From Inonotus obliquus (lineage: Eukaryota > Basidiomycota > Agaricomycetes > Hymenochaetales > Hymenochaetaceae): DNA of 64,000 bases. Position 1 is the first letter of the stretch; every line of letters starts with the position of its first letter. A program made the position numbers and the translations under genes. The stretch spans positions 1,860,001-1,924,000 of the forward strand of contig JAJHTX010000009.1 in the NCBI GenBank assembly GCA_032164295.1. The letters run 5' to 3'. The notes below the pieces were generated by a model. It searched no databases, was not told where the DNA came from, and saw only the letters and a list, made by a program, of their open reading frames with translations. Of this stretch, positions 9,634 to 23,751 are shown piece after piece.

Positions 9634-10276
9634 TGTCAGGCCAGGATATTGCCTGGACATAAACAATCGTAATATTGGCACGCTTTACACTATCGGAAGC
9701 AAGAACATAGTAGGACATCAGAAAGGATAAACAAGAAATATCGGACGTCGCAGTAACTCGTAATTCTGCACACAAGTTAGCAAATCGAAAGCCGATGGAA
9801 AGTGCCAAGCTTACTATCAAGCGTTGAGCACAACTCGTCTAGTAACAAGCACCGGTACCCACTCGACCCACTCCTCCTCGATCATGATAGTCGTCTCCAC
9901 AAATACTCTTCGTGCTATTAAGCATAAAGATCGCAAAGTGTCGAGAAAGTAACTCACTGAATCGGGTTAGAGGAAGCACGATGATACACAAAAGTCAGCC
10001 TGAGAAGTTCAGAAGCGTGGCAGAGCAGATGGTGAAGTCGTGCACGAAGTCGTGAAGGTGGCATTAGAACAAAGAATTGCAGAAAAGGAACTCGAGCGGC
10101 GATAGATAAACAAACCATTCTTTATATGGTCACGCTCTAGAAGCAGAAATGAAGGTTCAAGAACCACCGGTTGCACCATTCATTTGGTCTTATCTGAGAA
10201 GCCATCCGATACATCGCTCTGGAAAAACCAAAGACCACAGTCCAGATACCAAAAACCAAATAAGCCCAAACTTGGT

Positions 10277-10440
10277 AATCGATTATATCATCCATCAGGT
10301 CATCGATTATATCATCCATCAAGTAATCGATTATATCATTCATTAGGTCATCGATTATCTCATCCATCAAGTAATCGATTATATCATCCATTAGGTCATT
10401 CATCAAGTCATCGATTAGATCATCGATCAGGTCATCACCT
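10277..10440 (+). repeat. 24-bp tandem repeat array inside LTR
   Basis: About seven units of roughly 24 bp, each built on ATCGATTATATCATCCATCA with small variations (ATCCATCAGG, ATTCATTAGG, ATCCATCAAG). The same array is at 22630-22793, and inverted in the solo LTR near 60400-60560. Being upstream of the TATA-like box, it could act as an array of protein-binding sites. Confidence 0.85.
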
Positions 10441-10469
10441 TGAACCATATTCTGGACTCATCAATTGAT

Positions 10470-10650
10470 TCATTGATGGCACATCATTCATCAAGTAACT
10501 CATTGATGCGCATCATTCATCAAATAACTCATTGATGCACAGCATCTATCAAGTAATTCATTGATGCACAGCATTCATCAAATCATGCATTGATGCACAT
10601 CACTCATCAATTAATTCATTGATGCGCATCATTCATCAAATAACTCATTG
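10470..10650 (+). repeat. 29-bp tandem repeat array inside LTR
   Basis: About six units of roughly 29 bp starting TCATTGATGCGCATCATTCA. The related solo LTR at 59562-61191 keeps only about two units, which accounts for most of its 135-bp shorter length. The array expands or contracts between copies. Confidence 0.8.
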
Positions 10651-11403
10651 ATACATTGATACATATCACTTGATTTGGAGTATTTGATGCATAGCTTTGG
10701 AAGGAGATATCAAATTTTGATGATGTGGTTGATGCAGATCTATTTTTAGCTTATGCTGTGGATTATGTAAATTGGTCTTGGAATTAGTATTTAAGGACCA
10801 GCATGTAGCCCCCCAGAGGAGCATAGAATTAACTCCCCATAGAATAACTCACCAGAGTTCTCCCCCAGAACAAGACAAGCTCACATCACTCTGTGACCCC
10901 TTGTCACACTATTTGCAAGTCAAGTCAAGGTTTCGTCGCATACAGTTGACCTCAGCTCAAGACTGGATAACTGTATTGCTCAAGGACTAGTTTGGTACTA
11001 GTCAAAGGTATTGTATTGCCTCTGTTCCAATTGGACATTGGTGATAAACCCCCCTCTCAAAGTCGATATCTGATATCTTGAGACTTCGAGTGTGTGTGTC
11101 CCTCTAGACATTGACATCTATTCTGCATAGCTTGTCATTGCCTACCTCGGTGTGGACAATTTAATTGCTCCTCACCCATTGTGACCTATCACTCGCTTTC
11201 AAGAGAATTGGATAAAGACTCATCTCTCACTCACTCTACCTCTCTACTCAAACTTGAGTCTCTCAACCCTCCAACTACAACAAGTTGCCCATAGCTTCAA
11301 CGAACAACTGGGAAGACTACCCGCCTAGATAATTAGACCGGTTGACTCAGTGGGAGTGTACTTGGTTATTCAACAGCCAATACCATCCCAGCACGACAAA
11401 ACT

Positions 11404-11421
11404 TGGTGACCACCGCAGGGC
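11404..11421 (+). other. candidate primer binding site
   Basis: TGGTGACCACCGCAGGGC begins five bases after the 5' LTR. It starts with TGG, as expected for complementarity to a tRNA 3' CCA end. The tRNA could not be assigned with certainty. Confidence 0.5.
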
Positions 11422-11523
11422 AGCTATTCGATAGTTGTGGTTGTAACCATATCAAGTTTTACCATCATCGCTCATCGATCAGAGCAAAGAAGAATTTTTC
11501 GCTAAGTCATTTGCATTGTTATC

Positions 11524-14500
11524 ATGACCACTGACAGTGCTACACAAACTACCAATCATGAGGAAGAAGTTCCCTCGACCAATCAGACATCATTATCGGT
11601 TCTAGATATGCCATACTCGACCTCGAAGAATGCTCCCAAGATATTCACGGGACATTTCTCAGAAGTCAAGGCCTTTCTAGATTATTATGAACAATTGTGT
11701 TCTAAGTACAATGTTACGCTTGACACAGACAAGTGCAAGACCATCACTCGATACTGCTCGAGGCAGGTAATCCAGGTGGTCGAAGGTCTTAATGATTTCG
11801 CTATACCCAATTGGAAGAATCTCAAGACTCAACTGCTGAGGCTGTTCGATGCCCAGCTCAATGAGAAGAGATATACAAAGATGGATCTCAAGAGATTCAT
11901 GTACGCTAATCGAGACTCGAGAGTCAAGAGCTGGAAACAATTCACGCAGTATTCCAGAGAGTTTACCAAGATAGGAGGATGGCTATTCGCTCACAAGAAA
12001 ATAACCAAGGAGGAACAGGCCACCTATTTTTGGAATGGACTCGATGACTACACTCGTGCACACCTAGAGAATCGACTCTTACTAAAGGATCCAGACCATG
12101 ACATGGCTGAACCTTTCGATTTGGAGCAGATATGGAATGCTGCAGAGTCGATGTTGAATGCAGACAGGTTCGACATGATTGATGGGGAGGAAAAGAAGGA
12201 AACTCCAAACCCATTCAGAGATGAACCTGAAGATGACCTCGGAAGTAATGAGAAGGAAGATGAGGATGAGGTCAAGATCGTATCTGATAGGATAAGGGAA
12301 ACTCAGTCTCCAAAGATCGGCAAGACTGATTCGAAGTTGAGAAGAGCTCAGGATAGGGTGAAGAAGACAGAACCTGATGAGGTAGAGAAGCTGATCGAAC
12401 AAATGTCGAAGCTCTCCATATCAGATCCGAAGTATGGTCTTTTGTACTACAAGGCAGTCAAACTCGACCCTTTAGTTGCACAAGCCATTCGTTCTCCAGA
12501 TCTTAGGTCCAATAATCGTATCGAGACTCAGCCAGATCAAGAGAAGAATAAACCTCGAGGTGGAAACATCGAGAGAGCTCCCTATCGTAATTGTTTTGGA
12601 TGTGGACAAATGGGACATGGACTTCGAACATGTTTAGAGGTGAAGAACATTATTTCCCAAGGAATTGCCAAGTTTGATAACTCAGGGAAACTTTGCATGG
12701 GAAATGGAGAAGTGATCAGGCGAGCATTTGGAGAATCATTAGTCCAAGCTGCTAAACGCCAACACTCAGCAGAAAGCAAGGTCAACTTTATCACATGTCA
12801 ATCCTCATCGGAAACTAGCGAGACATTATATGCGCACCCAGAAGAAGATGAGATTGGATATCCGATAACTCGTTCTCAGAAGACAACCAATCACAAGCGC
12901 AAGGATGTAATGGAAAGACCCATTCAGTCAAGACCATCAAGGAGAGCAGAACCAGAAGTTGTCATCGATCGTATACCTCGAAAGTCGCAAGCAGAGACAA
13001 TCAGTCCACCAGCCAAGACTCAGCCAAGTGTCAAAGATATCACTATGACTAATGAGCAGTTGGTACAGAAGATTGACCCAAGGAATAGTTCGAGAGTATC
13101 AACTAGCAAAGAAGAACCTACGGGAGACAAGTCGCAAACAGCACATCGTACACCACGCCAGTCGGAGATGTCAGCCAGTGTTAATCTTCAGACAGTCGCT
13201 GACAAAATCCTTTCCCAGGATCAACTTATCTCAACTCGAGATCTTCTTGGAGCTTCTCCCGGATTAGCCCGGATCATTGCTGATAAGCTTCAGTACAAGA
13301 CCATCAAACCCGCTCCAGAAATGATAATGAGAGCCAATATTGTTGAAGAAGATTCAGAGGATAATTCAGAAGCATTCTGGACTCGACCAGTGATTGCCAA
13401 GACTCATGGCAGACTTATCCGATTAACAGTCAATTGCGGAGGACATGACATCAATGCTATTCTCGATACTGGATCGCAAATGAACATCTGTCATAGTCGA
13501 TTCGCACAGCTCATCCAAAGACCCATTGACAAAACTCAGAAAATGAATATGAACGATGCTAATGGAGGACAAGGAATGTTAGAAGGATTACTCACAGGAG
13601 TTCGACTTGACATTGGAAGCATTATTACCATAGGCAACATCTATGTTGGAAGCCAAGTTCCATTCGACTTACTGCTTGGAAGACCATGGCAGAGAGGAAA
13701 CCTTATCTCCATCGATGAACGGCCTAATGGCACTTATCTCCAATTCAAGGACCCTGAAGATCCAACTCGATCGAAGACTAGATATGAGATGCTAGTAACT
13801 CCTGATGGAAGCAATGAGTCATGGGACTATGATCCATCAACATGGTTTGCTGCTCAACCTGATATCGATGATCAGGATGATTACCAAGCTCTATTTGAGA
13901 AGTTCACTCAGACAAGAGAGAAGGCATTGGAAGAAGTTCGAAATGAAGAAGGGACTGCATATACCGCATTTTCAGTTCCACCCTCATCAACTCAATGTAT
14001 TGTCAAGGAATGGGAAATCGAAACAGGAGAAAAATCAGTGCCAAGGAATTTGACATTGATAGAGGATGAAGAAGACAGAGAAGAAAAAGAAGCTCGAAGT
14101 GACTCAGAATTACCTAATATCAGGATCTATCGAAAGCGAATGAGAGGCTCAGAAGAAACAGACAGCCTAGAGTCACTCACGGCTCCAAAGAAACCAAAGT
14201 TCAGTCAAGAGTCGGATTATGAGAGTGACCAACGTGATCCTCAGACCATGAGGATGAAGCCAGACCAGCCATCACAAAGTGTGTATGAGCATGGAATGAC
14301 TAAGAAGGAAGAATTACGAGATTCAGATGATGAAATATCAAGTATATTGAGTGTCGGAAGTGAAGGATACTCAAAACACCATCATTATGGACAAGAAGCT
14401 AGCACGTCACAGCCATTCCCAACACTAATGATGTCGAAGAAGGACATCATAGTTAGGAATGATGAAGAAGAACTCTATTCCTCCAAGGAAATGGAGTCGG

Positions 14501-17232
14501 ATCACTATGAAAACGAGATCAATCCATTATTAAATGCACTATTTTCGGATTTTCACGAAATCGGCTCACCTCATACAGCCTCAGGGACCCTCCAGGTAGT
14601 CCACAATGACAGGGAATCACTCTGTGAGGAATATCTAGCAGGAAACCAGAGGGGGGAAGCCTACAAGCATAAAGGGAAGAAGTCAGTACAGCCGAAAATG
14701 CATAAATCTCCGAAATCTCATATCTCCGCGAGTTCAGTTCCGATCACCGTCATTGAACCGCCGTTGGAAAGCCGTGATCCGTCCGATCATTCCAAGCCAT
14801 CATACAATCTGCACGGTGCAGATCCGACAAAGTTACGGAAGAAACCGCGTTGGAGAAAAAGGAAGCTCAAAGTTAGCATTGCTGAACGACCGATGGACGG
14901 ATTTGCGCAATCAAGTAGCCGATCCGATAGCTCTCGACGAGAAGATTCCAACGATATCACAAGGAAGAGAAACGAACGACACCCGGTCAAGTTATGGCCT
15001 AATCTAGTAAATCCGAAAAATGCGACTCAGATATGGAACAGACAGCATGGAAATAGGACTCACATGCTACAACCAGACCCATTTCACGGGAAGGGAGGTC
15101 GACACAAACAGAAAAAGCCTAGAATCACCAAGAACGACCAAGAAATGAAGGAGATATGGCCAAAATCAAAACGAGAGGTTTTTGACCATAAAAGACCTTC
15201 AAGTAGCAAGGAAAGCAGCATTGACAGACCCCCAAAGACCATGCGAATGTCAAGTACACCCATGCAGACAGTGGCACAAGGAAAGAGATCAGTAATTGAG
15301 AAGGGAAATTCAGAGTTTGTGAACACACACCTGTGTAACACTCCCTATCAGACCCAACATCGCAATCCGACATCACTGAACGCACCAAACCACACGTATG
15401 ATACACCGATCGAAAGCCCTTGTCAGCGCGAATCAAACGAGCCTAAGATGACGAAGATCGGTGGAGATTTGACCGAGATGCAGGGAGGTGAACGACGACA
15501 CAGATATGGTGATGTGGCACATCCCCACACCTTCCCCAGCCCACAGACGAATGAACTAGACCTCAGAGACGCCCAGGGCAGTAGGTTAGTGCATGAAGTC
15601 GACGATAGACACCAGAAACTCACAGGAGACGCAAGAGAACACCTCAAAGACAGCTCAGAAGCTCAGAACCACTCAAACCCCAAATCCGACTTTCTTGTCT
15701 CCTCTAGCACGCAAATAACAGTTGCAGACCAGCCAGATGGTTGTGAAGGAAGTGCTGAGGATGCAGATGACGATTCTATAATCATAAGAATCAGAATTAA
15801 TAGGCGGAACAGAAAGGAAAGCTTACCAGAGGTGATAGATGCACGGAAAGATAGGAATGCAGTGCACATGGCCGGAAACCTTCCCCAAGACATTGCAAAC
15901 GAAAATGACGGTCCGAAGCGCAGTACACAGACTGAGGACAAGCCCAGGATGACAGCAAGCCAAGGATGGAGACCAGTTATTAAGGAGAAAATGAGTATGC
16001 TGTCGTTTTTTGTCAATACTCTAGTTTTGGTGATACTGTGCATTCAACTCACGAAAGCAAGCCCTCTACCACTCCAAATGTCCTCTAACGACCCATCCAC
16101 CCTCTTGACACCCCCTAATACCCCTCAGACTCTCTCGGAGATGGTTAATGTCGAAGAATTGGTGGAAATTTTCGAACGTATGAAAGTAGGAGAGCCAGAT
16201 TCAGTGATGGTAGAAGGAAGAATTGCTACGTTGACAAGCCAGACCCCAGACGGCACAGAAACCCATACCATTCTACTCCCAGCACTTCGACTCCCTACCT
16301 CAGACTTCGCATACTACATGCAGAAAGTGCACGACAGCTCCATGAACAAGACCGGTACTCTTCTTCTGTCACCCCGGGGCATCAAATGGACACCAATTGA
16401 ACCTGTTGACACTGAAGATGGTATCAGCACTGCACGATTTTTGGAAGGACAAGCCGTACCGTATGAAGGAACAGTGTTGAGGTTGGATCAGTTTGAAGCA
16501 CGAGTACGCAGGTCCATCAGCACACTGCCTATCCAACACCAGATGGGCTCCTACCTTCTTTATGCTCCGTTGGCCCAGTACAGTGACTGGCCCCTTCGTG
16601 ATGAAATCACTCAGCTCTGGATACACCTTATCGACCTCCACCTTCAGCTTTCACTTGCAGATTGTGCCTGTAATGGAAGATATTGGGCTTTGATGCCACC
16701 AGAGATGTTGGAAGAGTTGTCGAAAGAATGGGAGAGAGTGAAGAAAATGCTGGTGGAGTACGCAACCAAGTTGCTAGAACATGACTACAGCTCCGAGCTC
16801 ATGGAACCTATGACCAGGATGGAGATGCACCGGGATGGAACCACTTCTCTCCATATGTGCCGACGTTTTCACATTGTTGCTCGAGACCTGGAATTGTACA
16901 TTCCTGCTCCGTTGAAGGGATGCCAGATCCTCAGAGAAGAAGAATACCTATGGTTAGTCTGTCTCAACGAAGCCATTGCCCACGCACATGACCTATGCAA
17001 GGAGAGTTACACTATTGGACCACACCTTCCTTATGATCCAATTACGGAGTTGATAGATGAGATTGCTCATGCCAGGTTGCCAGAAGAAGATTGGGAGGTA
17101 CTTCCTCAACCAGTAACGCTACGCAACAACAGAGATGGAGCAACATCACCTGACTCACTAGGGTATGAAAGTGGAATCAGTTCCAATGCAGATGAGTGGA
17201 ACCTCTCTTCCTCTGATATTAGTCCTTTTTAA
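11524..17232 (+). CDS. gag-protease polyprotein with long C-terminal extension
   Basis: Single open frame of 1,902 residues from ATG to TAA. The order is: a gag-type capsid region at about residues 35-200 (FWNGLDDYTRAHLENRLLL); a CX2CX4HX4C zinc knuckle at C357-C370 (CFGCGQMGHGLRTC); and an aspartic protease with AILDTGSQMNI at D648 and LLLGRPW near 717. Some 1,180 more residues follow. The first 750 or so are acidic or basic, Ser/Glu/Lys-rich and probably disordered. Near 1490 comes MSMLSFFVNTLVLVILCIQL, a signal-anchor-like segment, then about 390 residues of folded-looking sequence with several cysteines and YLLYAPLAQYSDWPL. A typical Ty3 gag-protease is far shorter. Nothing in the extension was recognised; an env-like or membrane role is only a guess. 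The frame differs from pol. Confidence 0.88.
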   Translation: MTTDSATQTTNHEEEVPSTNQTSLSVLDMPYSTSKNAPKIFTGHFSEVKAFLDYYEQLCSKYNVTLDTDKCKTITRYCSRQVIQVVEGLNDFAIPNWKNLKTQLLRLFDAQLNEKRYTKMDLKRFMYANRDSRVKSWKQFTQYSREFTKIGGWLFAHKKITKEEQATYFWNGLDDYTRAHLENRLLLKDPDHDMAEPFDLEQIWNAAESMLNADRFDMIDGEEKKETPNPFRDEPEDDLGSNEKEDEDEVKIVSDRIRETQSPKIGKTDSKLRRAQDRVKKTEPDEVEKLIEQMSKLSISDPKYGLLYYKAVKLDPLVAQAIRSPDLRSNNRIETQPDQEKNKPRGGNIERAPYRNCFGCGQMGHGLRTCLEVKNIISQGIAKFDNSGKLCMGNGEVIRRAFGESLVQAAKRQHSAESKVNFITCQSSSETSETLYAHPEEDEIGYPITRSQKTTNHKRKDVMERPIQSRPSRRAEPEVVIDRIPRKSQAETISPPAKTQPSVKDITMTNEQLVQKIDPRNSSRVSTSKEEPTGDKSQTAHRTPRQSEMSASVNLQTVADKILSQDQLISTRDLLGASPGLARIIADKLQYKTIKPAPEMIMRANIVEEDSEDNSEAFWTRPVIAKTHGRLIRLTVNCGGHDINAILDTGSQMNICHSRFAQLIQRPIDKTQKMNMNDANGGQGMLEGLLTGVRLDIGSIITIGNIYVGSQVPFDLLLGRPWQRGNLISIDERPNGTYLQFKDPEDPTRSKTRYEMLVTPDGSNESWDYDPSTWFAAQPDIDDQDDYQALFEKFTQTREKALEEVRNEEGTAYTAFSVPPSSTQCIVKEWEIETGEKSVPRNLTLIEDEEDREEKEARSDSELPNIRIYRKRMRGSEETDSLESLTAPKKPKFSQESDYESDQRDPQTMRMKPDQPSQSVYEHGMTKKEELRDSDDEISSILSVGSEGYSKHHHYGQEASTSQPFPTLMMSKKDIIVRNDEEELYSSKEMESDHYENEINPLLNALFSDFHEIGSPHTASGTLQVVHNDRESLCEEYLAGNQRGEAYKHKGKKSVQPKMHKSPKSHISASSVPITVIEPPLESRDPSDHSKPSYNLHGADPTKLRKKPRWRKRKLKVSIAERPMDGFAQSSSRSDSSRREDSNDITRKRNERHPVKLWPNLVNPKNATQIWNRQHGNRTHMLQPDPFHGKGGRHKQKKPRITKNDQEMKEIWPKSKREVFDHKRPSSSKESSIDRPPKTMRMSSTPMQTVAQGKRSVIEKGNSEFVNTHLCNTPYQTQHRNPTSLNAPNHTYDTPIESPCQRESNEPKMTKIGGDLTEMQGGERRHRYGDVAHPHTFPSPQTNELDLRDAQGSRLVHEVDDRHQKLTGDAREHLKDSSEAQNHSNPKSDFLVSSSTQITVADQPDGCEGSAEDADDDSIIIRIRINRRNRKESLPEVIDARKDRNAVHMAGNLPQDIANENDGPKRSTQTEDKPRMTASQGWRPVIKEKMSMLSFFVNTLVLVILCIQLTKASPLPLQMSSNDPSTLLTPPNTPQTLSEMVNVEELVEIFERMKVGEPDSVMVEGRIATLTSQTPDGTETHTILLPALRLPTSDFAYYMQKVHDSSMNKTGTLLLSPRGIKWTPIEPVDTEDGISTARFLEGQAVPYEGTVLRLDQFEARVRRSISTLPIQHQMGSYLLYAPLAQYSDWPLRDEITQLWIHLIDLHLQLSLADCACNGRYWALMPPEMLEELSKEWERVKKMLVEYATKLLEHDYSSELMEPMTRMEMHRDGTTSLHMCRRFHIVARDLELYIPAPLKGCQILREEEYLWLVCLNEAIAHAHDLCKESYTIGPHLPYDPITELIDEIAHARLPEEDWEVLPQPVTLRNNRDGATSPDSLGYESGISSNADEWNLSSSDISPF

Positions 17233-17648
17233 TTGCGCCGGTGCTCACTCATTTTCAATGCTCATTTCTCCATTTATTTCAATTTGGGAATTGGCCTTTC
17301 GACTCAGCCTCTACCCACCTACTATGTCTAAATTTGGAAATTTGCCATTTATTTCTGACTCATAATTTTCAAATGCGCAATCACCCCTCACTCAATGTTT
17401 CTATTTATTTATTGATCAACCCCCACTTTATTCATAATTTCTTTTCATCACCAATCAACCCCCACTTAAATAAATGGTACAAAATTAGTTGTTTTGAAGT
17501 ATTGGACATTCTGACTTTCGTATTATGGTTCTCACTCTCAGATAAATTAGAAAAAGTTATTTTCTTTATTTTTCTGACGTTTTTCAAGTCTGGAATTAGG
17601 ATAGGATCAATTTCTCTTAGGACTTTCAGACATTTTTTATTATTTCAG
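17233..17648 (+). other. T-rich gag-pol spacer with possible 3' splice site
   Basis: About 416 bp, very T-rich. In the pol frame it is open but reads as hydrophobic nonsense (Phe/Leu/Ile-rich). It ends in a pyrimidine-rich tract and TTATTATTTCAG at 17648, immediately before plausible pol sequence. This looks like the 3' part of an intron. The only phase-0 donor noticed near the end of gag is GTAACG at about 17119; it is not established. Confidence 0.45.
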
Positions 17649-20600
17649 GATCTTTGGACCCGAGTCGAGTCTCACGATTCAACTTTTGCAAATCGGGAGA
17701 AGGAGTTCAGAGAAAATAACTTTCAAGGAAATGAGCATCGGCAAGGCAAAGTATTTATGGCAAGGATAGGAGAACTCGAAGAAAGGAAAGGGATGATGAA
17801 AGAAAGTTTTACAGCATACAAGCGAGTGGATAGGAAAGTCAAACCAATTCCAGGAATATTTCCTGAAGATGCACGGGTCACTCGACAGTTTCCAGAAGAT
17901 CCACTACTCACGTTACCTAATCTTCCAATGCACCCACCAGAATTTGAACCTTCGGAAAGGTTGACATTGGAAAGGCTAAAAGAATTGCACATCAACGATG
18001 ATGGATTCTTATGGCCTGAGGAAGAAAAATTATTCACGCATATATTCAAGATCAATGAACGGACTCTAGCCTTTGAAGAAACACATCGAGGAACGTTCCG
18101 AGAAGACTACTTCTCACCATACATTATTCCTGTAATCCCACATATCCCATGGGAGCACAAGAATATTCCAATCCCACCTGCCGCTAAGGATGAAATTATT
18201 CGAATGTTGAAAGAGAAGATCAAGGCAGGAGTATATGAACCAAGCCAGGCATCATATCGATCTCGATGGTTCAGTGTAGCCAAGAAGAATGGAAAGCTCA
18301 GAATTGTGCATGACCTTCAAGTTCTAAATGCAGTAACAATTCGAGATGCAGGTTTACCACCAGTGTTGGATGACTTCGTGGAACCTTTTGCAGGACGATC
18401 ATGTTATACGGTTTTCGATCTATTTTGGGGATTTGATGCTCGAAAATTAGCACCTGAAAGTCGCGATCTAACTTCGTTTTATACACCATTGGGCCTATTG
18501 CGAATCACATCCATGCCAATGGGATTCACAAACTCGCCTGCAGAATTTCAGAAATGTATGGTGTTTATTCTTCAACAAGAGATCCCCGATATTGCCAATA
18601 TCTTTATCGACGATTTACCTATCAAAGGACCTACCAGCATGTACCTTAAGGAAGATGGAAACCCGGAGACATTAGCTGAAAACTCTGGAATTCGCCGATT
18701 TATTTGGGAACATGCAAATGATGTGCATAGAATAATGCATCGAGTAGGACATGCAGGAGCTACATTCTCGCCCAAGAAGACTCAGGTAGCAAGGCCTGAA
18801 GTAACCATCGTAGGACAAAAATGTACTCCAGAAGGACGGTTACCTGATGACAGCAAAGTACAGAAGATTCTAACATGGCCACCATTGACAACTGTCAAAG
18901 AAGTCCGTGGATTTCTAGGTCTATGCGGCACTGTTCGCATATGGATCCAGAATTATTCAGCAATAGCAAGGCCACTAACTGAGCTTACAAGAAGCACAAT
19001 AGAGTTCGTATGGGATGAGCGAAGACAACAAGCCTTCAATGCTATGAAGAAGCTAATAACCTCAGCTCCAGCATTACATCCAATCGACTATAACTCAGAA
19101 CTACCCGTGGTATTATCTGTGGACTCAAGCATTATCGCAGTAGGGTTTATTCTATCCCAAGAAGATGAAAGTGGAAGGAGAAGACCAGCGCGATATGGAT
19201 CTCTACCAATGAATGAACGGGAATCGAGATATTCGCAACCCAAACTAGAGCTTTATGGACTCTTCAGAGCTCTACGCCATTATCGTCTTTACATATTTGG
19301 AGTCAAGAATCTTCAAGTTGAAGTGGATGCAAAGTATATTAAAGGAATGCTCAATGAGCCAGACTTACAACCTAATGCGACTATAAATCGATGGATCCAA
19401 GGAATATTATTATTCGACTTTAAACTGATACATGTATCAGCGACTCGGTTTAAAGGGCCAGATGGTCTTTCTCGAAGAATACCATTAGAGGAAGATTTTG
19501 AAGAATTTGACGATGAATTCCTGGACGAGATCGCATTAATGGTTACTGGTGTACCATTCGGTTCTACCAATGAAGAAGAACATTCGTCATTTACTATCTC
19601 CGCAAAGGATCAAGATAAAAATCTTTTAGAGATATTCCGATTTTTGGTTACTCTCAAAATACCAGAATTCACTCGAGTGGAGGATAGGAAGAGATTCTTG
19701 AAGAAAGCATCGCATTTCTACACACAAGACAAGACTATGTACAAGAAAGGAAGAGATAATCCTCTCAAAGTTATCTTTGATCTAGAGGAAAGATTCGAGA
19801 TCATGGTAAAGGCACATGAAGAACTTGGACATAGAGGAGAATTCGCTACCTATGAACTTCTCAGACGGAGATTCTATTGGCCATTCATGAGATCACATGT
19901 GAAACATCATGTACAATCGTGTAATGAATGCCAAGTTCAAAGCACTAAGAAGGTGGAAATTCCTCTCATTATGTCAACCCCGGCAACAATCTTTGTGAAG
20001 ATACATGTCGACGTAATGAACATGCCTGTAGCAAAAGGATTCAGGTATATTGTAGCAGCAAGAGATGATCTAACTCGAGCTAGCGAGGGTCGTGCATTGA
20101 AAAAATCAAATGCAGCAGCCTTAGCTAAGTTCTTTTGGGAAGATATCTTATGCCGGTATGGAGCAGTTGGAAGGGTAGTAACAGACAATGGACCTGAGGT
20201 GAAGGGAGCATTTACCAAGTTGATGAATCGATATGGAATCCCTCAAGTAAAAATCTCAGCATACAACTCAAAAGCCAATGGAGTAGTCGAAAGAAGTCAT
20301 GCTATAATCCGAGAATCGATTGTCAAGGCATGTGAAGGTCAGATCGTATCATGGCCTAACAAAGTACATACTGCCTTCTTCGCAGACAAGATCACGATAA
20401 CTCGCTCGACTGGATTCAGTCCATTCTTTCTACTTCATGGTGTCGAACCAGTACTACCTCTCGATTTATTTGAAGCTACATTTCTAGTACAAGGATTCAC
20501 AGACAATATGTCGACAGAAGACCTTTTGGCTCTGCGAATTCGACAGCTGGAGAAGAAAGAGGAAGACTTGGAACAAGCAGCTAAGACATTAACAGAAATG

Positions 20601-21047
20601 CGGTTCAAGTCAAAAGAGCATTTTGAGCGACGATTTGCCAAAAGACTCAGTACTCATCAATTCGAGCCAGGAGATTTTGTACTAATGAGAAACACACAAG
20701 TCGAAAAGGAAATGAATCGAAAGACCAAACCTCGATACTTAGGACCATTGGTCGTAATTCGCCATACTCAGGGAGGAGCATATGACCTTCGAGAAGTAAA
20801 TGGAGGAGTGCGACGGAATAAGGTAGCAGCATTCAGACTTGTCCCATATATCGCACGAGATAAGGAGGCATTACAGAAACTGCTAATGGAATGGAAGGAG
20901 GATAGTTCAGAATTGTGCAAAGAAGAAAAGAAGAAGAAGGAACAGAATCAGTTGCGCACTGTAGATGAGGAAGAAGCGGAGTCATTTGAAGGAAGTGATG
21001 ATGATGATGATGATGATGATAATGATGCAGAGGAAGAAGTCGATTGA
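17649..21047 (+). CDS. pol polyprotein: reverse transcriptase, RNase H, integrase
   Basis: The open frame extends from 17241 to TGA at 21047, but convincing pol sequence begins only after the possible splice site at 17648 (DLWTRVESHDSTFANREKEF). The first ATG in frame after that lies near 17758. RT landmarks: WFSVAKKNGKLRIVHDLQVL, MPMGFTNSPAEFQ, and catalytic IFIDDLPI at 18603-18623, where the usual Y of YxDD is F. RNase H follows (LSVDSSIIAVGFILSQ). The integrase has HHCC zinc residues (HEELGHRG..HHVQSCNECQ) and the D,D,E core (HVDVMNM, VTDNGPEV, NGVVERSH). The C-terminus has a GPLVV..YDLREVNGG module and an acidic tail of eight Asp. No chromodomain. No internal stop or frameshift seen. Confidence 0.88.
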   Translation, partial: DLWTRVESHDSTFANREKEFRENNFQGNEHRQGKVFMARIGELEERKGMMKESFTAYKRVDRKVKPIPGIFPEDARVTRQFPEDPLLTLPNLPMHPPEFEPSERLTLERLKELHINDDGFLWPEEEKLFTHIFKINERTLAFEETHRGTFREDYFSPYIIPVIPHIPWEHKNIPIPPAAKDEIIRMLKEKIKAGVYEPSQASYRSRWFSVAKKNGKLRIVHDLQVLNAVTIRDAGLPPVLDDFVEPFAGRSCYTVFDLFWGFDARKLAPESRDLTSFYTPLGLLRITSMPMGFTNSPAEFQKCMVFILQQEIPDIANIFIDDLPIKGPTSMYLKEDGNPETLAENSGIRRFIWEHANDVHRIMHRVGHAGATFSPKKTQVARPEVTIVGQKCTPEGRLPDDSKVQKILTWPPLTTVKEVRGFLGLCGTVRIWIQNYSAIARPLTELTRSTIEFVWDERRQQAFNAMKKLITSAPALHPIDYNSELPVVLSVDSSIIAVGFILSQEDESGRRRPARYGSLPMNERESRYSQPKLELYGLFRALRHYRLYIFGVKNLQVEVDAKYIKGMLNEPDLQPNATINRWIQGILLFDFKLIHVSATRFKGPDGLSRRIPLEEDFEEFDDEFLDEIALMVTGVPFGSTNEEEHSSFTISAKDQDKNLLEIFRFLVTLKIPEFTRVEDRKRFLKKASHFYTQDKTMYKKGRDNPLKVIFDLEERFEIMVKAHEELGHRGEFATYELLRRRFYWPFMRSHVKHHVQSCNECQVQSTKKVEIPLIMSTPATIFVKIHVDVMNMPVAKGFRYIVAARDDLTRASEGRALKKSNAAALAKFFWEDILCRYGAVGRVVTDNGPEVKGAFTKLMNRYGIPQVKISAYNSKANGVVERSHAIIRESIVKACEGQIVSWPNKVHTAFFADKITITRSTGFSPFFLLHGVEPVLPLDLFEATFLVQGFTDNMSTEDLLALRIRQLEKKEEDLEQAAKTLTEMRFKSKEHFERRFAKRLSTHQFEPGDFVLMRNTQVEKEMNRKTKPRYLGPLVVIRHTQGGAYDLREVNGGVRRNKVAAFRLVPYIARDKEALQKLLMEWKEDSSELCKEEKKKKEQNQLRTVDEEEAESFEGSDDDDDDDDNDAEEEVD

Positions 21048-21776
21048 ATCAAGAAAGTTGAAGAAGGATCAATGGCATATGCAGTAACGGGAGTGTTAGT
21101 TGCATCGAGCATGGACAAATACTCGAAAGAAGGAAGTGTCTCAGGAGTGAAATAGGAAGCCAGTAAATAACGGGTCTCGGAAAGGTTCGATAACATGAAA
21201 GTGCGAGCAGAAGGATCATTCTCCCATCGAAGGAGCTTGAACAAAACCTCAGACTCTCCTTTGGTGACCGGTTGAGTAGAAGAAGTGCGTGGATAACCTA
21301 GACGGGCGTGGAAACCAAGGCTACAGCCATGTATATGCATGCAGCGGGCACGGTTCTATAAGCAAAGAATTAGAAGAAAGAGCAAGTAAGATCAACGCAA
21401 TTTGACTACTCACAATGAGCTGAACCTGGACGATGCGAACCGGACAATTTTCGGCATGAGTGCCAAACCCACACGTTTCAAGACATGCACATTGACAGAA
21501 GGGAGAAAAAAGATTGACTCGAAGACAGAAGAAGTAAAACAGGTCGGTGAGAGAAGGAGGTGGACAGTCGAAGATCCAGTAGTACATCATTGACTCAAAG
21601 CTACAGGTACGGACATATTGGAAAGGGCGCCCACCCGGATCAACTTCGGCAACATAGATTGCAGAGAGAATATCATTATCAGAGGTCGATAGAACAAATT
21701 GAGAAGTAGGAAGCCCAGTTCGATGCCAGTCGAAAAGATTAGGCGCAGCGAAGAAGGAAGGGAGTATAAAGGACAT
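20948..21776 (-). CDS. antisense two-exon accessory gene of the LTR element
   Basis: On the strand opposite to gag and pol, between pol and the 3' LTR. Exon 1 is 21776-21414 (ATG, 121 codons), the intron 21413-21356 (58 bp, GTGAGT..TATAG, pyrimidine-rich before the acceptor), exon 2 21355-20948 ending TGA; 256 residues. The splice is phase 0 and removes an in-frame stop in exon 1's continuation. The N-terminal half is hydrophobic and cysteine-rich (CQCACLETCGFGTHAENC). The second half is soluble (GESEVLFKLLRWENDPSART) and ends in a Ser-rich tail, antisense to pol's poly-Asp tail over the last 100 bp. A TATATAAG box lies on the same strand about 65-75 bp upstream of the ATG. No known domain recognised. 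Position and orientation recall antisense ORFs described in some plant Ty3 elements; homology is not claimed. Confidence 0.6.
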
Positions 21777-21841
21777 AGTGAGCGGCGAAGAAAGGAGTCA
21801 ACAGTGAACTCACTCGAAGGCGCAAACATTTGAGAAGATCG

Positions 21842-21849
21842 CTTATATA
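21842..21849 (-). promoter_or_regulatory. TATA box of the antisense gene
   Basis: On the minus strand the sequence reads TATATAAG, 66-73 bases upstream of the antisense ATG at 21776. This spacing allows a short 5' UTR. It lies inside the retrotransposon, outside the LTR. Confidence 0.45.
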
Positions 21850-21986
21850 AGAAGAACAAGGCACAGAAGAAGCAGCGAGCTAATATATCAATATTCTTTC
21901 AGAATAATCGGATATCAGCTCTTTAGGAGGATTTGTTTTAGGAAGTTTGCAACTGGGGACAGTTGATATTTCAAGTGTTGGGCAGA

Positions 21987-23751
21987 TGTCAGGCCAGGAT
22001 ATTGCCTGGACATAAACAATCGTAATATTGGCACGCTTTACACTATCGGAAGCAAGAACATAGTAGGACATCAGAAAGGATAAACAAGAAATATCGGACG
22101 TCGCAGTAACTCGTAATTCTGCACACAAGTTAGCAAATCGAAAGCCGATGGAAAGTGCCAAGCTTACTATCAAGCGTTGAGCACAACTCGTCTAGTAACA
22201 AGCACCGGTACCCACTCGACCCACTCCTCCTCGATCATGATAGTCGTCTCCACAAATACTCTTCGTGCTATTAAGCATAAAGATCGCAAAGTGTCGAGAA
22301 AGTAACTCACTGAATCGGGTTAGAGGAAGCACGATGATACACAAAAGTCAGCCTGAGAAGTTCAGAAGCGTGGCAGAGCAGATGGTGAAGTCGTGCACGA
22401 AGTCGTGAAGGTGGCATTAGAACAAAGAATTGCAGAAAAGGAACTCGAGCGGCGATAGATAAACAAACCATTCTTTATATGGTCACGCTCTAGAAGCAGA
22501 AATGAAGGTTCAAGAACCACCGGTTGCACCATTCATTTGGTCTTATCTGAGAAGCCATCCGATACATCGCTCTGGAAAAACCAAAGACCACAGTCCAGAT
22601 ACCAAAAACCAAATAAGCCCAAACTTGGTAATCGATTATATCATCCATCAGGTCATCGATTATATCATCCATCAAGTAATCGATTATATCATTCATTAGG
22701 TCATCGATTATCTCATCCATCAAGTAATCGATTATATCATCCATTAGGTCATTCATCAAGTCATCGATTAGATCATCGATCAGGTCATCACCTTGAACCA
22801 TATTCTGGACTCATCAATTGATTCATTGATGGCACATCATTCATCAAGTAACTCATTGATGCGCATCATTCATCAAATAACTCATTGATGCACAGCATCT
22901 ATCAAGTAATTCATTGATGCACAGCATTCATCAAATCATGCATTGATGCACATCACTCATCAATTAATTCATTGATGCGCATCATTCATCAAATAACTCA
23001 TTGATACATTGATACATATCACTTGATTTGGAGTATTTGATGCATAGCTTTGGAAGGAGATATCAAATTTTGATGATGTGGTTGATGCAGATCTATTTTT
23101 AGCTTATGCTGTGGATTATGTAAATTGGTCTTGGAATTAGTATTTAAGGACCAGCATGTAGCCCCCCAGAGGAGCATAGAATTAACTCCCCATAGAATAA
23201 CTCACCAGAGTTCTCCCCCAGAACAAGACAAGCTCACATCACTCTGTGACCCCTTGTCACACTATTTGCAAGTCAAGTCAAGGTTTCGTCGCATACAGTT
23301 GACCTCAGCTCAAGACTGGATAACTGTATTGCTCAAGGACTAGTTTGGTACTAGTCAAAGGTATTGTATTGCCTCTGTTCCAATTGGACATTGGTGATAA
23401 ACCCCCCTCTCAAAGTCGATATCTGATATCTTGAGACTTCGAGTGTGTGTGTCCCTCTAGACATTGACATCTATTCTGCATAGCTTGTCATTGCCTACCT
23501 CGGTGTGGACAATTTAATTGCTCCTCACCCATTGTGACCTATCACTCGCTTTCAAGAGAATTGGATAAAGACTCATCTCTCACTCACTCTACCTCTCTAC
23601 TCAAACTTGAGTCTCTCAACCCTCCAACTACAACAAGTTGCCCATAGCTTCAACGAACAACTGGGAAGACTACCCGCCTAGATAATTAGACCGGTTGACT
23701 CAGTGGGAGTGTACTTGGTTATTCAACAGCCAATACCATCCCAGCACGACA
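21987..23751 (+). repeat. 3' LTR (1,765 bp)
   Basis: Direct repeat of 9634-11398, same length, same terminal TGTCAGG and ACGACA, same internal tandem arrays. Followed by the target duplicate ACGT at 23752-23755. The sequence immediately before it (AAGTGTTGGGCAGA) is a poor polypurine tract; the best purine run nearby (TTAGGAGGA) is about 60 bp upstream. Confidence 0.92.

Follow-up and report, generated by a model that had tools for sequence, protein, structure and literature searches.

A Ty3-type element of Inonotus obliquus appears to carry an antisense gene of 256 codons, with one predicted intron, between pol and the 3′ LTR on the strand opposite gag-pol. Its anatomy is well defined, its length is improbable by chance, it is preserved across copies of the element, and a cousin family contains a selected gene of similar layout. 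We put at about two in three the probability that this is an accessory protein gene borne by the element, with its own promoter, spliced by the host and with a product that likely acts in trans. The stretch of DNA that was analysed, 64,000 nucleotides long, is referred to as the window, and Table 1 lists the features within it.

The element and its candidate antisense gene

The element is complete in the window (9634–23751). Its two LTRs of 1765 bp show zero mismatches, indicating that the insertion is very recent, and a 4-bp target duplication (ACGT, read by eye) flanks it. The LTRs, gag-pro and the order RT–RNase H–integrase place it in Ty3/Gypsy (Metaviridae), with the protease and integrase core slightly or clearly below Pfam cut-offs. 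Pol matched RVT_1, RT_RNaseH, RT_RNaseH_2 and Integrase_H2C2 above cut-off, the integrase core rve fell just under it (32.4 versus 32.6 bits), and two sub-threshold protease matches covered ORF1 residues 635–721. Homologues of pol were abundant in the protein database (of 7,992 candidates scored, 1,417 passed E ≤ 1e-5; the close relatives show 66–77% identity), the named ones including Trametes cubensis and Phanerochaete sordida; none was confirmed in the viral and prokaryote collections. The approximately 1,180 residues of ORF1 beyond the protease matched no Pfam family at E ≤ 1 and include a strongly hydrophobic 20-mer (residues 1490–1509), possibly a signal or membrane segment. The frames of ORF1 and pol differ, and a simple scan of 16504–17599 returned four intron-like bridges of 404–842 bp, recalling the intron between gag-pro and RT of Ogre elements. 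Two tandem arrays, one spaced at 12 bp and the other at 29 bp, are also present in each LTR (10226–10681 and 22579–23034).

The antisense gene spans 829 bp (20948–21776). When the gene model was rechecked, the ATG exon, the phase-0 intron of 58 bp, the second exon and the 256-aa product (121 + 135 codons) were all as described in an earlier, sequence-only reading, and the upstream sequence claimed there is present as TATATAAG, 65 bp above the ATG. The Ser-rich tail of the protein was likewise confirmed; its serines arise because the (GAT)n repeat coding for the acidic tail of pol is here read in reverse.

Table 1. Features of the Ty3-type element and its antisense gene, in window coordinates.
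Feature	Position	Strand	Description
5′ LTR	9634..11398	+	1765 bp, TGTCAGG...ACGACA; no mismatch to 3′ LTR
ORF1	11524..17232	+	1902 aa: gag (CCHC knuckle, by eye) and aspartic protease, followed by ~1,180 further residues
ORF2 (pol)	17241..21047	+	RT, RNase H, integrase
Antisense exon 2	20948..21355	-	135 codons + stop; 100-bp overlap with the end of pol
Antisense intron	21356..21413	-	58 bp, phase 0, GTGAGT...CTAAT...TATAG
Antisense exon 1	21414..21776	-	121 codons from ATG
TATATAAG	21842..21849	-	TATA-like candidate promoter box, outside the LTR, 65 bp above ATG
ACTGGGGACAG	21952..21962	+	Motif immediately preceding the 3′ LTR, here and in the cousin family
3′ LTR	21987..23751	+	Compared with the 5′ LTR

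The earlier statement that the protein matches no known family also held. No Pfam family and no PDB sequence matched it at E ≤ 1, and none of 438 candidates from the protein database did so at E ≤ 10, a search that would miss exons predicted as frames shorter than about 140 aa. As 1,417 relatives of pol were found, the database does cover such elements, and the missing homologues suggest a fast-evolving or lineage-specific protein. All 10 Cys residues are within positions 58–132 and four of the five His residues within 107–137; this Cys/His region straddles the splice junction and, as a guess from its composition, may bind metal. AlphaFold2 run on the single sequence of the unspliced 151-aa frame gave no usable structure (mean pLDDT 35).

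Chance, coding signal and copies in the genome

The chance expectation was estimated by searching for the longest antisense ORF with at most one intron (GTRNGH donor, CTRAY branch, YAG acceptor, 45–90 bp), using an intron pattern that was chosen after the finding had been seen, though it is generic. Only one intron in the real stretch fits this general fungal pattern, and it is the reported one, giving 256 aa. For the randomisations the pol tail was held fixed and the rest was randomised, such that the pyrimidine richness of the strand, which itself lowers stop frequency, was kept. An ORF of at least 256 aa was found in 0 of 2000 dinucleotide shuffles, in 1 of 20,000 order-1 Markov sequences and in 6 of 20,000 order-2 Markov sequences. 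Exon 1 read without splicing (151 aa) was less striking, being equalled in 0.95% of shuffles. We conclude that a long antisense ORF with one intron is rare by chance.

Codon usage trained on gag-pol scored the antisense frame below all three sense frames, and best overall among the three antisense frames. Gag-pol codon usage does not mark the frame as coding, which counts against a gene; gag-pol, on a purine-rich strand, may be a poor codon model for an antisense gene. A codon-usage variant that favoured the antisense frame was dropped as circular and as biased by its stop penalty and pooled base composition.

The organism's own genome (36 Mb, 30 contigs) contained at least 14 loci with the antisense region (16 matches). 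Among the integrase loci listed, 13 belonged to the window family (97–100% identity), and all 13 have the region. Of the 14 loci found, 13 span the gene (both counts being lower bounds), and eight of the 13 spanning copies are intact in frame, start, stop and both splice sites, so that it is present in most copies of the family and is not a one-off transduction. Both splice sites are retained in 12 of the 13. The lesions in the other five are a frameshift (L059), loss of the intron acceptor (L061), a stop (L063), a deletion in exon 1 (L065) and a 150-bp in-frame deletion in exon 2 (L064). Among the intact copies, exon 2 varies in length by multiples of three, but within a trinucleotide repeat that it shares with pol. 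An apparent intron-less copy at C6:2813294 (768-bp full-length match) was rejected, as it has a 64-bp deletion in exon 1 and still contains the intron.

The comparison of variation used 11 young copies; L063 was excluded as decayed, L064 as rearranged and L066 as a fragment. Variant sites numbered 8 in 671 bp of non-overlapping exon and 54 in 1391 bp of upstream sequence, intron and LTR (Fisher p 0.0005), an approximately threefold lower variation in the exons; the LTR was counted in its portion outside the tandem repeats, and gaps in the LTR may inflate its counts. The eight intact copies gave a similar result (6/671 versus 45/1391, p 0.0008), and the exons were also less variable than the first part of the LTR taken by itself (21/583, p 0.007). 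The difference from pol was marginal (15/548 in 10 copies, with L064 and L054 left out as not aligning there; p 0.06), and that from upstream sequence plus intron (7/268) was not significant (p 0.15); thus, only in comparison with the LTR is the exon variation clearly low. The young copies showed five nonsynonymous and three synonymous changes in the non-overlapping exons, and three and none, respectively, in the pol overlap, giving no sign of protein-level selection. Exon changes in the old copies L063 and L066 were mainly C-to-T or G-to-A (20 of 24 and 19 of 26, respectively), and each copy had one stop; many of the changes hit CpG sites, a pattern that methylation decay or a RIP-like process would produce. 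As both copies are decayed, they yield no selection estimate. Decay across copies, by which the sequence-only reading had proposed to judge the gene, therefore gave a mixed answer: the eight intact copies speak for it and the two old ones are uninformative.

Antisense genes in a cousin family

The strongest support for the window gene is a second antisense gene in a cousin family of six loci (42–45% integrase identity to the window element), located at the same place beyond pol. The region beyond pol was retrieved for five of the six loci, leaving out C12. The main ORF extends for 971–974 codons without stops in C2, C5 and C12, contains one stop in C9 and two in C11, and is represented by fragments in C10 and C13; in C2 the gene totals 1,099 aa. 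Upstream of it, five loci were read. In C2, C5, C9 and C10 a first exon of 108 codons, starting with ATG, precedes a phase-0 intron of 56 bp (GTGTGC or GTGCGC donor, CTGAT, AATAG). This exon is free of stops in C2, C5 and C9 but contains two in C10, and C11 fails to align there. The search model used above found just one intron in the cousin stretch, and a TATA-like TTTATAGA is 61 bp above the ATG (by eye).

Substitutions in the cousin gene follow the codons. Between C2 and C9, the pN/pS ratio was 0.24 across 869 codons (0.11 for the first 94 codons), with 14, 13 and 38 changes at the three codon positions. Ratios of 0.37 (C2 versus C11, 693 codons), 0.41 (C9 versus C11, 692 codons) and 0.17 (C2 versus C5, three changes only) were obtained for other pairs; comparison of decayed C10 with C2 gave 0.60 for exon 1 and 0.41 for 114 codons within exon 2. 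From these data we conclude that the cousin antisense gene is under codon-level selection. As the cousin stretch is rich in simple repeats and contains sense ORFs from ATG of up to 272 aa, the codon pattern, not the length, is the evidence. The cousin protein is Q-rich, with a CX2CX6CX7CX2CX7C spacing that we take to resemble the fungal Zn2Cys6 pattern; it had no Pfam match at E ≤ 10, and its first 260 residues had no relative at E ≤ 1. The cousin LTR (L072:787-2510) has at least 59 matching stretches, compared with six integrase loci, so that most are probably solo LTRs, and in L071 (C13:529740-533540) an LTR of the same family (C13:530843-532593) sits within the antisense gene and splits it.

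The window and cousin genes have in common their place, their strand, a short phase-0 intron after 121 and 108 codons, respectively, and a similar distance to the TATA-like box; agreement in phase is expected one time in three by chance. The proteins differ greatly in length and composition, and BLASTP of the window protein against the cousin main ORF (without the cousin's first exon) gave a best E of 4.3, on which we rejected homology as demonstrated. The common layout hints at a recurring accessory gene, and does not establish common descent. A fungal Ty3 clade may long have had an intron-bearing antisense accessory gene, the phase-0 intron after some 110–120 codons and the promoter position being ancestral and the protein having diverged or had its body swapped (a zinc-cluster-like, Q-rich protein versus a Cys/His-rich one of 256 aa), as a fast-evolving counterpart of HBZ; we regard this extension as rather doubtful.

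Nothing comparable was present in five other Ty3 families, represented by one locus each (23–29% integrase identity; 3.2–3.4 kb beyond the integrase, with the LTR position not fixed): the best antisense ORF starting with ATG was 77–95 aa, and stop-to-stop antisense frames reached 129 codons. Downstream of the integrase, two of these loci have a sense ORF, possibly an extra gene, of 338 aa (L079 1184-2198) and 294 aa (L080 1489-2371), respectively.

Alternative readings, mode of action and known systems

A spliced antisense transcript might instead act at the RNA level, by base-pairing with the genomic RNA or by supplying RNA silencing, with the frames incidental to a pyrimidine-rich strand. 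Pyrimidine-rich strands have few stops, and neither codon usage nor the N:S counts of the young copies favour a protein; moreover, double-stranded RNA from antisense transcripts is discussed in PMC7264820. However, composition-preserving sequences almost never reach 256 aa and the cousin gene is selected at the codon level, and we consider this explanation unlikely. Distinctly unlikely is a set of chance ORFs with a coincidental intron and no gene. The exon 1 ORF on its own turns up in about 1% of shuffles, the protein has no homologues and the tail of exon 2 reverses a pol repeat, all of which would fit chance, yet the whole gene was almost never matched in the randomised sequences, the majority of spanning copies keep it intact, the loci of the five other Ty3 families have no equivalent, and the cousin family has a selected gene of similar layout. 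Capture of a host gene by transduction, inserted with its intron and promoter, would account for the TATA-like box and the fungal-type intron, but it is highly improbable, as no donor was found in the protein database, Pfam, PDB sequences or the organism's own genome (the 30 matches listed there at E ≤ 10 were element copies, bar one at chance level with E 1.4), and a second capture would be needed to account for the different cousin gene at this site. The sequence-only reading had proposed a spliced antisense gene carried by the element and, as to its nature, a captured host gene or a regulator that counteracts or tunes the element. The anatomy, the chance tests, the copies and the cousin family speak for the former, and capture from the host found no support in these searches.

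For the accessory protein gene that we favour, transcription would start from a promoter of its own, lying in the interval that separates the ATG from the 3′ LTR, and the transcript would be spliced by the host and translated. The plus-strand genomic RNA would present the intron reversed, so that it would not be removed before reverse transcription and would persist. Survival of an antisense intron through reverse transcription, as the first description had argued, is sound in principle. The product would most likely act in trans on expression or replication of the element, as HBZ does for HTLV-1 and as proposed for the plant aORFs; we favour a trans-acting accessory protein because of the analogy with HBZ, Grande gene23 and the Retand aORFs. 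By analogy with the plant aORFs, Boty brtn and HTLV-1 HBZ, a regulatory role is possible, though by itself somewhat less likely than not.

In LTR elements, antisense accessory genes have been described from a number of plant families and, among fungi, from Boty at least (PMC7264820). In plant Ty3 elements the aORF-3R genes (Grande gene23, RIRE2, Retand, PvRetro13) are antisense, lie between pol and the 3′ LTR and occur in most copies; Grande gene23 has its own upstream promoter and a nuclear protein (PMC7264820, PMC11963269). The window gene is likewise antisense, in the same interval (exon 2 overlapping pol by 100 bp) and in most copies, and its counterpart to the gene23 promoter would be the candidate TATA-like box. 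It differs in its fungal host, in its short product (256 aa), which has no match to the TRP28 domain of Retand type (PF04195) or an SMC domain among Pfam families at E ≤ 1, and in its predicted intron, the word 'intron' being absent from the main texts of PMC7264820 and PMC11963269. Boty brtn is, by description, also an antisense extra gene in a fungal Ty3-type element (PMC7264820, PMC8365987); a Boty-like element is described with a chromodomain, whereas Pfam found none in the window element. The antisense protein genes HBZ of HTLV and APH-2, APH-3 and APH-4 have spliced transcripts, and HBZ down-regulates the virus (PMC10186651). The window gene would resemble them as a putative antisense protein gene, and its predicted intron is a consensus match in DNA. 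The HTLV promoter is described within the 3′ LTR; the candidate TATA-like box of the window gene is outside it, although the gene may use an LTR promoter. Unlike HBZ, its protein has no bZIP match in Pfam at E ≤ 1. The Ogre intron of plant Ty3 elements, another intron carried in an LTR element, is on the sense strand between gag-pro and RT and is spliced from a subset of transcripts (PMC6317226); the window intron is antisense.

Thus, antisense genes at this site are already described for plant elements and Boty (PMC7264820, PMC8365987), as are spliced antisense genes for HTLV, and an intron-bearing one in a fungal Ty3 element is apparently new; among the titles and abstract openings listed, which come from part of an open-access library, none described an antisense gene with an intron in a fungal LTR element, a weak negative. 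Two families in one fungal genome with intron-bearing antisense genes of similar layout would be tractable for studies of function, and natural antisense introns offer a clear-cut way to test how a single element accommodates both host splicing and reverse transcription.
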